This document shows positions 59,802 to 64,000 of a stretch of DNA of 64,000 nucleotides, one piece after another. Position numbers and translations under genes: made by a program. Origin of the DNA: Thiorhodococcus drewsii AZ1 (lineage in GTDB: Bacteria; Pseudomonadota; Gammaproteobacteria; Chromatiales; Chromatiaceae); the NCBI RefSeq assembly GCF_000224065.1, contig NZ_AFWT01000010.1, forward strand, positions 62,001 through 126,000, written 5' to 3'. The notes beneath the pieces are model-generated. The model was given only the letters and a program-made list of their open reading frames with translations. It was not told where the DNA came from and did no database searches. Within the stretch, counting starts at the first letter, position 1; each line of letters begins with the position of its first letter.

Positions 59802-61265
59802 ATGCGGTTCGCGTTGAAGACCTATTATCGGTTGGAATTCCTTCCCGCCGTCGTGTCCTTCGTCGGCGAGATTGCTCGCTGTCTGGGGGCGACGACAAAG
59901 GAAATCTCAGAATTGTCGATGGCCTCGGAGGAGGCCGGCGCCTACATCATCGAGCGTTATCCGAATCAGGGTTCCGAGGAACAGTTCGAGGTGGTTTGCG
60001 AGGTGCTGGAGGACGGGCTGCGCGTCGTCTTCAGCAACATGGGATTGCCTGTCGACCCGGGTGGCCTGCCCAAATACGAGGTGACTCAGCCCGAGGAGAC
60101 GATCGATGGTCTCGGACTCTTTCTCATCGAGAAACTGGTCGACCACTTCGAGTTCGTCAATCAGGGGCGGGCCGGCTGGCGCACGGTGCTGCTCAAGCGG
60201 CTCTCGAACCCCAAGGTCCTGGTGGCACCACCTGCGGGCCCGGATCAAGCCCCCGCGTCCAGCCGCGAGAAGCTGCAGGTCCGTCTGGCGGGCGTCGAGC
60301 ACGTCCCCGGTATCGTCGAGCTGGCCTATCGCAACTACGGATACTCCTACAGCAAGGAGGTCTTCTATTACGCCGACCGCTTGCAGGAAGCCATGGAGGA
60401 TGGGCGCGTTACGTCCTACGTCGCGCTCAATGCCGAAGGGAAGGTGGTCGGGCAGATGGCCATCCTGCGCGCCACTGGAGATGCCGAGGTGGCCGAATAC
60501 GGCGCGCTCATGGTGCAGCCCGAGTACCGTCGCAGCATGGGGCTCCTACAGCTCATCAAGGCGGTCGCACGCACGACCAAGGGGGGCGATGATCGGGTTG
60601 CGGTCGGTGAAGCCAATCTAGTGACCACCCACACCCAATCACAAAAGGTCTGCAGTCTCTTCAACTTCAGCCCGATGGCGCTGAAACTTTCGGTGCACGG
60701 CCGGGCGCGGTTCGTCAAGCTGGCCGAGGAGGACGATGCCCAGCGTGAGACCCTGTTGCATGCCGTCACCGTCACTCGTGACGTGCCTCCCGTTCGGCTC
60801 TTCGTCCCTTCCTCCCATGTCGAAATCAGCCGCCGCTTGTTCGAGAATTCCGGGCTGTCCCTAGAGATCCCGGTCGAATCTCCTTCGCTCGCGGAGCACA
60901 CCGATCTGGCGGTCGAAACCCATGCCGAATCGGAGCTGGCCGTGCTCTCGCTCAGGGTGACGGGCGAGGATTTTGCCAGCGTTCTGCGCCGACAGCTCTT
61001 CGATCAGGAGTCCGACGGTATCAAGACCGTTTTTGTCCGCTTTCCCGCCTGGCTCGCGCTGCCCGAGACGCTGGAGGATGAAGTGCGTCGTATGCGTCTC
61101 TTCTTCTGCGGTTGGGTGGTGGAGTCACCGGACCGCTGGTGGTTGCTCTACACGCGACTCTATGCACAGCGGTTCGATTTCAGCCGTATTCAATTGTGCG
61201 ATCCGGTTGCGATCGAACTCCAAACCTATGTCGAACGCTGTTACCAAGAGGCGATTTTTTCATGA
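59802..61265 (+). CDS. RsbW-like ATPase-fold / GNAT two-domain protein
   Basis: 487 residues from ATG 59802 (M-R-F-A-L-K-T-Y-Y-R-L). Residues about 5-130 resemble anti-sigma/RsbW-type HATPase_c_2 domains (E-I-S-E-L-S-M-A-S-E-E-A, then D-G-L-G-L-F-L-I-E-K-L), but the N-box Asn and a D-x-G Asp seem to be replaced, so kinase activity is doubtful. Residues about 155-300 form a GNAT acetyltransferase fold (G-Q-M-A-I-L-R, then V-Q-P-E-Y-R-R-S-M-G). A less recognisable C-terminal part of about 190 residues follows. The stop overlaps the next gene by 4 bp. A role as a regulator or acyl-transferring partner of the ATP-grasp-GH3 enzyme is inferred. Confidence 0.8.
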   Translation: MRFALKTYYRLEFLPAVVSFVGEIARCLGATTKEISELSMASEEAGAYIIERYPNQGSEEQFEVVCEVLEDGLRVVFSNMGLPVDPGGLPKYEVTQPEETIDGLGLFLIEKLVDHFEFVNQGRAGWRTVLLKRLSNPKVLVAPPAGPDQAPASSREKLQVRLAGVEHVPGIVELAYRNYGYSYSKEVFYYADRLQEAMEDGRVTSYVALNAEGKVVGQMAILRATGDAEVAEYGALMVQPEYRRSMGLLQLIKAVARTTKGGDDRVAVGEANLVTTHTQSQKVCSLFNFSPMALKLSVHGRARFVKLAEEDDAQRETLLHAVTVTRDVPPVRLFVPSSHVEISRRLFENSGLSLEIPVESPSLAEHTDLAVETHAESELAVLSLRVTGEDFASVLRRQLFDQESDGIKTVFVRFPAWLALPETLEDEVRRMRLFFCGWVVESPDRWWLLYTRLYAQRFDFSRIQLCDPVAIELQTYVERCYQEAIFS

Positions 61266-63844
61266 AGAGTTCGGTCACGATGCACGGATGGATTCTCTAT
61301 ACCGGGAAGGAGGTGCGCGAGCTGACACGCGCCTGCGAGGAGGCGGCGACGGCGGGAGTCGAGCTGCAGGTGGTGGCGCCCAAAGAGGTGCAGCTGATCC
61401 TGGATCCGGACGACTCGGCGCGCTTCTATCTCCGGGGTGACTTCGTTCCGGCCCCGATGTTTGCCATCGCCGCCTTCGTCGAGGAGGCGGATGACTATAA
61501 CCTGGCCCTCTTGCAACAACTGGAGACTCAGGGCGTCTTCTGCGTGAACCGCGCCGAGACCCTGAAGCGAACCAGCGACAAGCTGCTCACGCTGCAATTG
61601 CTCACGGCACACGGCATCCCGGTTCCCAAGACCATTCTCGTGCGTCCGGACACCTCTCCCGAGTTCATCTGCGAACGTTTGGGTTTGCCGGTCGTGCTCA
61701 AGGTCCTGGATGGATCCAAGGGGCATGGCGTGACTCTGGTCCAGACCCAACAGGAGCTCGCCAGCCTGTTGGAGATGCTCGATGCGGCCCAGTGTCCGAC
61801 GGGGCTCCTGGCGCAGGAGTTTATCGCTGACAGTCGGGGGCGCGATTTGCGCGTGCTGGTGATCGACGGTCAGCCGCGTACCTGCATGCTGCGCAGCAAC
61901 CGTTCGGCCGACGGCTTCAAATCGAACGTCTCGGCCGGTGGCGGCGCGGACGCCTATCCGTTGAACGAGACGATCATCGCACTCTCCAAGCGGGTGATCG
62001 AGGTCATGGGGCTCGACATCGGCGGGATCGATCTGCTGTTCAAGGGAGGCGGCTTCGTCGTCGGAGAGGCCAACTCCATTCCCGGTTTCCAGGGCATCGA
62101 ATCCTGTAGCGACATCAATGTGCCCGCCGAGATTCTCCAAAGCATCCGGCGTCGATTCAAGGCGCGGATCGCTGCGCGTTATCAGACCCTGGCCTCGGAG
62201 ACCTGGGGGCTGGATGAGTGGCGGCTGAAGCAGGATCTGGAGCTGGTCCAGACCTTCATCGGGGCCTGCTCGCTGGTCGAGGAGACCCAGCAGCGGGTGC
62301 TGCTGGACATCCTTCGGCAGGGGGCTCAGACCGAGTACGGTCGCGCGAACGGTTTCGAGGCGATCGACTCGATCGATGCGTTTCGACAGGCTGTCCCCGT
62401 CTCCCAATGGGCCGATTTCGAGCCCTATGCCCAGCGCATGGAGCTGGGCGAGGGCGATCTGCTGTTCTCTGGGCAGCCGACCCATTTCATCAGCACCAGC
62501 GGCACCACCGGACACTTCAAAAACATCCCGGAAAGCGCCGCTGGCGAGCTCGCTAAATCGCTGGTCAGCCGCGCCCGTACCGCGCTGCTGATGAAGATGA
62601 TGCCGGATCTGCTCGACGGCTATTTCATCCCGCTGTCCAACGTCGCCGTCATGGGCGAGACCGCCGGGGGCATCCCTTTTGGCTATGCCTCCGGCCTCAC
62701 GCTCGCCGGCGCACCGCCGGAGATCCGGCGGCGCTTGGCCTTTCCTCCCGAGGTGTTGGGCGCGACCGATGCTGCCACGCTCGATTATCTGACCATGCGT
62801 TTCGCCATGGCTCAACCGCTGGTTCGGCTGCTGGTCGGCAACAATCCGGGACGCATGACCGCGCTGCTGGAGGCCGCCGATCGGCGGCGCGACGAGATCA
62901 TCACCGACATCGAGCGCGGCACCCTGTCCCAGGATCTGGAGCTGGACGCGGAGTTGCGCCGGCAGTTGGAGGGGTATCTGAGCCCGGACCCAGAGCGCGC
63001 CGCCGCGCTGCGCAGCATGCTGGCCGGACGCGGGCGCTTGGAACCGCGCGACTACTGGCCGGGGCTCAAGATGATCTCCTGCTGGCTCGGTGGCACCATC
63101 GGTCGCTATCTGGAGGGACTGATCCCGTGGCTGCCCGAGAACGTGATCTTCACCGACTGCGGGTACGGTGCCAGCGAGGGCAAGTTCAACGTCCCTATGC
63201 GTCCGGGCGCGCCCGAGGCGCCGCTCGCCATCTTCGGCTATTTCTTCGAGTTTCAGCCGCTGGCGGGTGGTGAGCCGCTGCTCGCTCATGAGCTTGAGGA
63301 CGGGGCCGAATACGGTCTGATCGTCACCAGCTATTCCGGACTCTACCGCTACGATCTGCACGATATCGTCAAGGTCAAGGGCTTCACCGGCGGGAACCCC
63401 AACATCCAGTTCCTGAGCAAGAGCCGCGATATCGCCAACCTGGCGGGCGAGAAACTCGCCGGGGCGGTGATCTCGGACGTGGTGCGCCGCACCCTGGCCG
63501 AGCGCGATCTGCGCTGGCGGCATTTTTGCGTGGTCGCCGACAGCGGCGCGCACCGCTACGACTTCTGCATCGAGCCGGAAGGGGATGCCGTGCCTGATGC
63601 CGACTGGCTCGCCGCCATGGACGCCGCGCTCGCCGAGGCGGCCGATGGCTTCAAGCTGCTGCGCGAGCAGGGGCTCATCGAGGCGCCGCGACTGATCCTG
63701 ATGGGCACGGGTTGGCTCGACCGGCTCTACGAGGGCCATCTGCGTCCAGGCGTCACCAGCGCTCAGATCAAGCTGCCGCTGGTGTGCGACCAGGTCCCGC
63801 TGCCCGACCTGATCGAGCGCCACGTCGAGTTGCGTGCCCGCTGA
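61262..63844 (+). CDS. RimK-like ATP-grasp / GH3 amido synthetase fusion
   Basis: 860 residues from ATG 61262, which lies in the ATGA overlap. Residues 1-300 are a RimK-like ATP-grasp ligase (T-S-D-K-L-L-T-L-Q-L-L, then P-V-V-L-K-V-L-D-G-S-K-G-H-G-V, Q-E-F-I and G-G-F-V-V-G-E-A-N-S-I-P-G-F). Residues about 305-860 are a full GH3 domain, an adenylating acyl-acid amido synthetase known from plant hormone conjugation. It has the ATP loop S-T-S-G-T-T-G-H-F-K (about 411-420), Y-G-A-S-E-G (about 634) and Y-R-Y-D-L-H-D-I-V (about 695). Two carboxylate-activating enzymes in one chain suggest two successive amide bonds on one substrate. It is followed immediately by an exporter gene. Confidence 0.88.
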   Translation: MKSSVTMHGWILYTGKEVRELTRACEEAATAGVELQVVAPKEVQLILDPDDSARFYLRGDFVPAPMFAIAAFVEEADDYNLALLQQLETQGVFCVNRAETLKRTSDKLLTLQLLTAHGIPVPKTILVRPDTSPEFICERLGLPVVLKVLDGSKGHGVTLVQTQQELASLLEMLDAAQCPTGLLAQEFIADSRGRDLRVLVIDGQPRTCMLRSNRSADGFKSNVSAGGGADAYPLNETIIALSKRVIEVMGLDIGGIDLLFKGGGFVVGEANSIPGFQGIESCSDINVPAEILQSIRRRFKARIAARYQTLASETWGLDEWRLKQDLELVQTFIGACSLVEETQQRVLLDILRQGAQTEYGRANGFEAIDSIDAFRQAVPVSQWADFEPYAQRMELGEGDLLFSGQPTHFISTSGTTGHFKNIPESAAGELAKSLVSRARTALLMKMMPDLLDGYFIPLSNVAVMGETAGGIPFGYASGLTLAGAPPEIRRRLAFPPEVLGATDAATLDYLTMRFAMAQPLVRLLVGNNPGRMTALLEAADRRRDEIITDIERGTLSQDLELDAELRRQLEGYLSPDPERAAALRSMLAGRGRLEPRDYWPGLKMISCWLGGTIGRYLEGLIPWLPENVIFTDCGYGASEGKFNVPMRPGAPEAPLAIFGYFFEFQPLAGGEPLLAHELEDGAEYGLIVTSYSGLYRYDLHDIVKVKGFTGGNPNIQFLSKSRDIANLAGEKLAGAVISDVVRRTLAERDLRWRHFCVVADSGAHRYDFCIEPEGDAVPDADWLAAMDAALAEAADGFKLLREQGLIEAPRLILMGTGWLDRLYEGHLRPGVTSAQIKLPLVCDQVPLPDLIERHVELRAR

Positions 63845-64000
63845 TGACCGATGCCATCCTCAAGCCGCGCGACCTGGGCGGTCGCGCGCTGCTCATGCTG
63901 AGCGCCTATCTGATCCTGGTCACCGCCCTGGTTCGACTCGGCACCAGTCTCTATCTGCCGGCCCTTCCGGCGATGGCCGACGACTTGGGGCTCTCGGCTC
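63844..64000 (+). CDS. MFS exporter, Bcr/CflA type, 3' end outside window
   Basis: The first 52 codons only. ATG 63844 overlaps the GH3 stop (TGATG). The visible part has a first transmembrane helix (A-L-L-M-L-S-A-Y-L-I-L-V-T-A-L) and then G-T-S-L-Y-L-P-A-L-P-A-M-A-D-D-L-G, the typical start of Bcr/CflA drug-efflux transporters. As the third gene of the operon it probably exports the product of the ATP-grasp-GH3 enzyme, or protects the cell from it. The rest of the gene is needed to confirm the subfamily. Confidence 0.8.
   Translation, partial: MTDAILKPRDLGGRALLMLSAYLILVTALVRLGTSLYLPALPAMADDLGLSA

Follow-up and report, generated by a model that had tools for sequence, protein, structure and literature searches.

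RimK, which glutamylates ribosomal protein S6, belongs together with LysX, MptN and CofF to the RimK-family alpha-L-glutamate ligases. The bacterial GH3 enzyme OlsH uses free fatty acids to acylate an amino acid, producing N-acyl-ornithine in Singulisphaera acidiphila, and an earlier note on the DNA analyzed here, which held that the roles of bacterial GH3 enzymes are poorly known, has to be corrected in this respect (accessible part of PMC12493201). In the fungal E-64 pathway, which does without an NRPS, an ATP-grasp enzyme works in succession with an amide bond synthetase (accessible part of PMC12568646). AcuA/Pat-type GNATs acetylate adenylating enzymes, and in Bacilli they are encoded alongside them (accessible parts of PMC11255334, PMC13121692 and PMC4053389).

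Every part of the locus described below is of a known kind, and in the open-licence papers searched, judged by listed titles and abstract starts, we found no description of the fused enzyme, of the four-part module or of this combination.

An operon of three overlapping genes

The window, i.e., the whole analyzed stretch of 64,000 nucleotides, corresponds to C132:62001-126000 in the 5.5-Mb genome (141 contigs) of a purple sulfur bacterium from the family of Thiorhodococcus minor, which NCBI assigns to Chromatiaceae. The features of the operon, which starts near the end of the window, are the following:

59802..61265, + strand: HATPase-fold/GNAT-like gene (P0001, 487 aa), ATG at 59802; start matches the L030 and L033 orthologues
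59832..60167, + strand: HATPase_c_2 domain of P0001, residues 11-122 (Pfam HATPase_c_2, 6e-13)
60279..60605, + strand: GNAT-like domain of P0001, residues about 160-268 (signature YRxYGYSY...FYY)
60789..61262, + strand: C-terminal region of P0001 (residues 330-487), which can be aligned throughout the family
61262..63844, + strand: RimK ATP-grasp-GH3 fusion gene (P0002, 860 aa), ATG at 61262; called on Pfam domains
61289..61561, + strand: RimK pre-ATP-grasp domain of P0002, residues 10-100 (25.7 bits, slightly below the cut-off of 26.4)
61571..62146, + strand: RimK ATP-grasp domain of P0002, residues 104-295 (Pfam RimK, 4e-33)
62264..63121, + strand: GH3 N-terminal domain, residues 335-620 (Pfam, 8.9e-55)
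62492-62512, + strand: GH3 motif I, STSGTTG, aligned with relatives and JAR1
63164..63178, + strand: GH3 motif II, YGASE, residues 635-639, aligned with relatives and JAR1
63236..63418, + strand: GH3 central domain (GH3_M), residues 659-719 (Pfam, 4.2e-16)
63338-63364, + strand: GH3 motif III, GLYRYDLHD, aligned with relatives and JAR1
63476..63787, + strand: GH3 C-terminal domain (GH3_C), residues 739-842 (Pfam, 1.9e-5)
63770-63772, + strand: conserved Lys837 (QxK) of P0002, from the alignment
63844..64000 (part inside the window), + strand: Bcr/CflA-family MFS exporter gene, 410 aa, ATG at 63844; MFS_1 match

The exporter gene ends at C132:127076, equivalent to window position 65076 (L029 9845-11077), 1,076 bases beyond the window. 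As the earlier note had it, the three genes overlap on one strand by 1-4 bp: P0001 and P0002 by 4 bases, P0002 and the exporter gene by 1 base, and the start codons are consistent with those of most orthologues. The same gene order, with 60-74% identity, is found in two metagenome-assembled genomes (MAGs) of other phyla, which makes a chance origin of the gene set untenable. In L029 5300-11500, no sigma-70-like promoter was found (1.2 in shuffles), and the two terminator-like sites detected there are no excess over the 3.4 obtained by chance. None of the three operon proteins matched PADLOC at E 0.001, which leaves a defence role without a hint. AlphaFold2 models of two operon proteins, made from five-row alignments, had mean pLDDT values of 45.7 and 43.7 and were excluded from fold searches. 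On the minus strand, an open frame of 860 aa (61241-63823) lies opposite the fusion gene; it probably just mirrors the GC-rich coding sequence on the plus strand.

Two ligase halves in one chain, followed by an exporter

The earlier note's reading of P0002 as a RimK-like ATP-grasp ligase joined to a complete GH3 domain is borne out by the Pfam domains and by intact motifs. The GH3 N, M and C domains score 186.5, 59.2 and 25.7 bits, all above the cut-off of 23.6, and P0002 is the sole GH3 match in its genome at E 0.001. The best structure matches for the first half are RimK-family enzymes, and compared with the RimK-family structure 7qyr, this half conserves K107, K147, E186, R197, R211, N222, D257, E269 and N271, of which we take the aligned Lys, Glu, Asp and Asn residues to be ATP-grasp ligands. 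Judged by alignment, the nucleotide motifs of both halves are intact in P0002, so that the dead active sites reckoned with in the earlier note were not encountered in this genome.

Like the RimK-family ligases, P0002 passes the family model TIGR00768 (187.9, subfamily cut-off 143.4) and aligns with the 7qyr residues; it differs from them in being fused to GH3 and in staying below every equivalog cut-off among the 25 matches listed. It scores 118.4 against the RimK S6 ligase equivalog PRK10446 (cut-off 331) and 45.9 against the OlsH equivalog NF052613 (cut-off 620); against the N-acetylglutaminylglutamine synthetase model TIGR03103 it scores 27.4 (cut-off 569). The nearest solved structures for the GH3 half are plant acyl-acid amido synthetases, a benzoate-glutamate ligase among them. 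OlsH and P0002, both bacterial, have in common the GH3 fold and the three nucleotide motifs, and the motif I serine shown to be necessary in OlsH corresponds by motif to S413 of P0002; by contrast, OlsH has no ATP-grasp fusion, and its partner is the alpha/beta-hydrolase OlsI (accessible part of PMC12493201). There is no OlsI hydrolase gene in the operon, whose overlapping genes encode the HATPase-GNAT protein, the fusion and the MFS protein. The E-64 pathway combines an ATP-grasp ligase with an amide bond synthetase, as proposed here for the halves of P0002, but its enzymes are separate fungal proteins making another product, and their identity as GH3 is not stated in the accessible part of PMC12568646.

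The assignment of the third gene to the Bcr/CflA efflux type also holds: its product scores 214 against TIGR00710, above the family cut-off of 200.9, and it lies below the specific drug-pump cut-offs among the 25 matches listed. An MFS gene of the same kind is located directly downstream of the fusion gene in four loci, at a spacing of -1 to 55 bases, and the three fusion-linked homologues of the exporter are 78, 61 and 54% identical to it.

Distribution of the fusion and its neighbours

The gene set is rare: six non-redundant fusions were found, four in Chromatiaceae, one in a Lentisphaerae MAG and one in a Desulfobulbaceae MAG. The family, class and phylum genome sets searched with the fusion overlap partly. 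In the family, 4 of 146 genomes encode it (the genome under study, G486, G422 and G488; E 1e-40). The class search (369 genomes, E 1e-60) matched this genome and G304, the latter with a GH3 protein carrying a fatty acid hydroxylase domain, and the phylum search (299 genomes) matched this genome alone. In the phylum of the Desulfobulbaceae MAG (G514), 2 of 247 genomes match, namely G514 itself and G655, which has a split form; in that of the Lentisphaerae MAG (G512), the matches are G512 itself and G973 (2 of 240), the latter with a lone GH3 gene and no recognisable partner in the region at the contig start before it. A pattern scan of genome contigs returned Thiorhodococcus minor (G486, same contig as L030), an uncultured Chromatium MAG (G422) and the two MAGs G512 and G514, a count that is a lower bound because just two peptide patterns, both from the N-terminal part, were used. 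Among viral contigs, one stretch fit a pattern and none encoded a relative. Among plasmids, 44 records matched, none covering more than 80% of the fusion, and the 20 of them listed match in the RimK part or the GH3 part.

The homologue search and neighbour table suggested in the earlier note show the partners staying together across phyla, and once as separate genes. A HATPase-GNAT gene is located immediately upstream of the fusion gene in five of the six cases (this genome, T. minor, the Chromatium MAG and the Lentisphaerae and Desulfobulbaceae MAGs), with an overlap of 1-8 bases. An MFS gene follows immediately in 5/5 assessable fusions, four of the same kind as the exporter and one, in G488, of the MFS_3 type, 37 bases downstream; the contig of the Chromatium MAG, which stops before the downstream gene, is excluded from this count. 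No HATPase-GNAT gene was seen in the 20 kb inspected at the G488 locus, and G488 is absent from the 12 of 146 family genomes matching the HATPase-GNAT protein at E 1e-10. The three family matches to P0001 with more than 60% identity all accompany a fusion, and a search of 249 phylum genomes with P0001 gave only this genome and one partial match of 23%. Of the outcomes that the earlier note named as speaking against its proposal, a fusion mostly without its partners and a fusion already assigned to a characterised pathway, neither was found for this genome.

A block of ~5.5 kb including the operon (L029 5556-11088; window 59555 to window-equivalent 65087) is present here and absent from the same-genus genome G414, where the two flanks are collinear and only about 100 bases apart, a clean empty site. 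A search of G414, the single other genome of the genus compared, found no fusion at E 1e-40. The GC content of the operon is unremarkable in this genome (64%; flanks 61 and 63%), T. minor (68%; 66 and 65%) and the Lentisphaerae MAG (60%; 62 and 54%), and in the Desulfobulbaceae MAG it is 54% against flanks of 61 and 65%. The high identity across phyla suggests transfer, with mis-binning a possibility since the distant carriers are MAGs. Comparison of two insert-edge stretches by exact words of 9 bases gave no direct match longer than 10 bases and a single inverted match of 9 bases, so that no transposition mechanism is claimed.

Past the window end, L029 11060-19786 contains a minus-strand, regulator-rich cluster which, called by eye, presumably comprises response regulator, histidine kinase, PP2C-like, two RsbT-like, STAS, chemoreceptor-like and CheY- and CheA-like genes. 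It is also collinear in G414, which lacks the operon, and it was dropped as a candidate controller of the operon.

A putative pathway for amide synthesis and export

We give an even chance to the reading that these genes form a horizontally spread module which synthesizes and exports an amide, with an N-acylated amino acid or (di)peptide as its product. According to this proposal, the GH3 half would adenylate a carboxylic acid, the most likely substrate being a fatty acid or a comparable acyl acid; transfer of the acyl group to an amino acid would then give an N-acyl amide. The RimK half would activate a carboxylate as acyl phosphate and add an amino acid, glutamate-like to judge by its family, and the product would leave the cell through the MFS pump. 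The type of product is suggested by the chemistry of OlsH and the two-enzyme succession of the E-64 pathway. The fatty acyl part is proposed not from the operon itself, but from OlsH, the neighbours of related GH3 genes (MFS_3 and patatin) and the GH3 protein to which a fatty acid hydroxylase domain is fused. Weighing against the proposal are the low score of P0002 with the OlsH model, the missing ATP-grasp core in the Desulfobulbaceae MAG, the G488 fusion with no HATPase-GNAT gene seen beside it, the 15 HATPase-GNAT loci at which no adenylase operon was detected, the uneven GC content in G655 and the unremarkable operon GC of this genome, T. minor and the Lentisphaerae MAG. Such a module would be a compact, testable case of bacterial GH3 function outside ornithine-lipid synthesis, in which two ligase chemistries in one chain are combined with dedicated export, and expression of one operon would allow a mass spectrometry readout.

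A different role for the same enzymes would be the disposal of a harmful acid, for instance an aromatic one of environmental or endogenous origin, which the fusion would, in the manner of plant GH3 enzymes, couple to an amino acid such as glutamate, the Bcr/CflA pump expelling the conjugate. The plant synthetases closest in structure to P0002 would suit this role, and so would the relatives of the exporter, which are mostly named as drug and metabolite efflux pumps; an accessory trait would also fit the sporadic presence of the operon and the empty site in G414. However, simple conjugation needs no second, fused ligase, and the GH3 relatives in the own bacterial family adjoin patatin phospholipase genes, and we regard conjugation for detoxification as unlikely.

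The HATPase-GNAT partner

The earlier note's description of P0001 as an ATPase-fold/GNAT protein stands as far as the HATPase_c_2 fold is concerned. The ATPase label itself is doubtful: in the alignment, all five fusion-linked HATPase-GNAT proteins have Tyr or His in place of the N-box Asn and Asn in place of the G1 Asp (Tyr48 and Asn79 in P0001), two positions that we take to be functional residues of the fold, and the HATPase site of P0001 thus looks degenerate. RsbW anti-sigma kinases have the HATPase_c_2 fold in common with P0001, which differs from them in lacking both residues, in scoring below the equivalog cut-off and in being fused to a GNAT-like part. The GNAT assignment is sub-threshold: P0001 scores 19.5 bits against Acetyltransf_1 (PF00583), slightly below the cut-off of 20.7, a distant homologue in L046 exceeds it with 33.3 bits, and the L031 and G655 proteins gave no GNAT match at E 0.01. 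Residues 330-487 have no Pfam match.

The part that we propose for P0001, the weakest step of the scheme, is that of a regulator acting on the adenylating enzyme, a reading based on distant family members that share an operon with adenylating enzymes of unrelated types (LuxE-like and PaaK-like). Besides those of this genome, G486 and G422, nine HATPase-GNAT matches were found in the family (E 1e-10). Contexts were inspected for seven of them (G464 and G491 were left out), and three, those of G504, G468 and G393, are LuxE/LuxC/AMP-binding operons, with G393 assigned by its likeness to G468 of the same genus. In the phylum of G514, 26 matches were found in 25 of 247 genomes. Leaving six partial ones aside, 18 contexts were inspected besides G514 and G655, and tblastn with a query set placed three of these in such operons, bringing the distant members found there to six; at the other 15 loci, where short contigs may hide neighbours, these queries detected no adenylase operon. 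The recurrent arrangement (L046, L048 and L049 in the own family; L077, L078 and L081 in the phylum of G514) consists of genes for a LuxE-like acyl-protein synthetase, a LuxC-like reductase, AMP-binding-type enzymes and a HATPase-GNAT protein, the AMP-binding-type enzymes being presumably PaaK-like, and in L048, L049 and L078 an MFS gene comes after the HATPase-GNAT gene. The N-box Asn is absent in 11 of 12 members from adenylase or GH3 operons and in 3 of 19 others (Fisher 8.8e-5; 0.0086 once close relatives were collapsed), an association that is partly post hoc because the idea arose from the first 12 sequences.

AcuA/Pat-type enzymes provide the parallel of a GNAT acting on an adenylate-forming enzyme, as proposed for P0001, which in turn has a HATPase-type N-terminus and a GH3 target that is putative (accessible parts of PMC11255334, PMC13121692 and PMC4053389). 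Regulation by acetylation is to be taken as a lead only, and that K837 of P0002 might be equivalent to the acetylated catalytic Lys of AcuA/Pat targets is a guess. A bolder version, in which a single-chain, two-step amide synthase would yield an acyl-(di)peptide that is exported as a signal or surfactant, and P0001 would belong to a widespread pseudo-HATPase/GNAT family switching GH3, LuxE-like and PaaK-like enzymes by lysine acetylation, strikes us as improbable. In any case, the operon draws attention to a HATPase-GNAT family found repeatedly next to adenylating enzymes of different kinds.

P0001 could instead be biosynthetic, as the earlier note implied, and acetylate or acylate an amine of the product, comparable to N-acetylglutaminylglutamine synthesis; all three proteins would then build or move the metabolite. 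The GNAT-like domain is present and conserved, the genes overlap and ATP-grasp/GNAT pairs are known, with TIGR03103 being a weak match. Nevertheless, the same family occurs in LuxE/LuxC operons of different chemistry, the GNAT match is sub-threshold in P0001 and was not seen in L031 and G655, and none of its genes was seen with the G488 fusion. We consider a biosynthetic P0001 to be unlikely, and a regulatory rather than metabolic GNAT is weakly favoured.

The split form and the contribution of the two halves

In G655, five adjacent separate genes encode RimK, GH3, GH3, a Bcr/CflA-like MFS protein and a HATPase-GNAT protein, an order that differs from that of the fusion operon. The products are 43% (RimK), 38 and 36% (GH3s), 36% (MFS) and 36% (HATPase-GNAT) identical to those of the genome under study, and the MFS protein scores 191 against TIGR00710, slightly below the cut-off of 200.9. 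No recognisable partner was found at the contig start before the RimK gene, the HATPase-GNAT partner being located downstream. In a midpoint-rooted GH3 tree, the GH3 parts of the fusions form one group (93/95), nested in a clade with the GH3s of G655 and G973 (99/100), and in the HATPase-GNAT tree the G655 protein joins the five fusion-linked proteins (100/100). These trees fit a single fusion event within a pre-existing module; given the long branches, the finer order is unsure. The GC content of the G655 HATPase-GNAT gene is 52%, compared with 33-35% for its four neighbours and 49% for the stretch beyond, and this unevenness may reflect a different origin of the gene or an erroneous contig join, although it is unlikely that a chance join would have brought in exactly this member of the family.

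The ATP-grasp core is complete in five of the six fusions. In the Desulfobulbaceae MAG (L033 8004-10040), residues about 106-285 are lost in frame and the RimK Pfam match is gone, while the GH3 part and both partner genes are retained, which indicates that both halves are not always required. This deletion raises the possibility that the GH3 half alone performs the chemistry and that the RimK half is being lost, and five relatives of G488 have a lone GH3 gene before MFS_3, flanked on its other side in two of the five by the radical SAM gene also found in G488. Against a vestigial ATP-grasp half stand the complete cores of the other five fusions, the 7qyr-aligned ligands conserved in P0002, and the retention of RimK as a separate gene in G655; moreover, L033 is from a MAG, and its deletion could be a misassembly artefact. 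We consider a vestigial RimK half improbable. The split form and the apparent natural deletion would let each half of the proposed amide synthase be tested.

In a protein-modifying role, the RimK half would add amino acids to the C-terminus of a protein and the GH3 half would cap or modify this end, the exporter being incidental. The RimK-family structure matches and the S6 glutamylase activity of RimK speak for such a role; we regard it as very improbable because an MFS gene comes next in 5/5 assessable fusion operons as well as in the split form, small acids are the substrates of known GH3 enzymes, and the RimK equivalog score falls short of its cut-off (118.4 vs 331).

The surroundings of other GH3 genes were also recorded. 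The G488 fusion gene is flanked by a radical SAM gene and MFS_3; at this place, L023 and L025 have a lone GH3 gene of 548 aa, and in L024, L026 and L028 a lone GH3 gene likewise precedes MFS_3. Across L022-L028, five family genomes (G397 with two contigs) have a cassette in which the GH3-MFS_3 pair is convergent with a GH3-patatin pair, and G488 has the same convergent cassette, with the fusion replacing the first GH3 gene. The gene for GH3 with an N-terminal fatty acid hydroxylase domain (L004 1243-3810) adjoins an enolase-superfamily (MR_MLE) gene. Finally, GH3 genes lie near radical SAM and GNAT-like genes in the Lentisphaerae MAG (L057 191-7054; radical SAM called by eye) and on an IncF plasmid of Citrobacter portucalensis (L063 7953-15902; radical SAM annotated).
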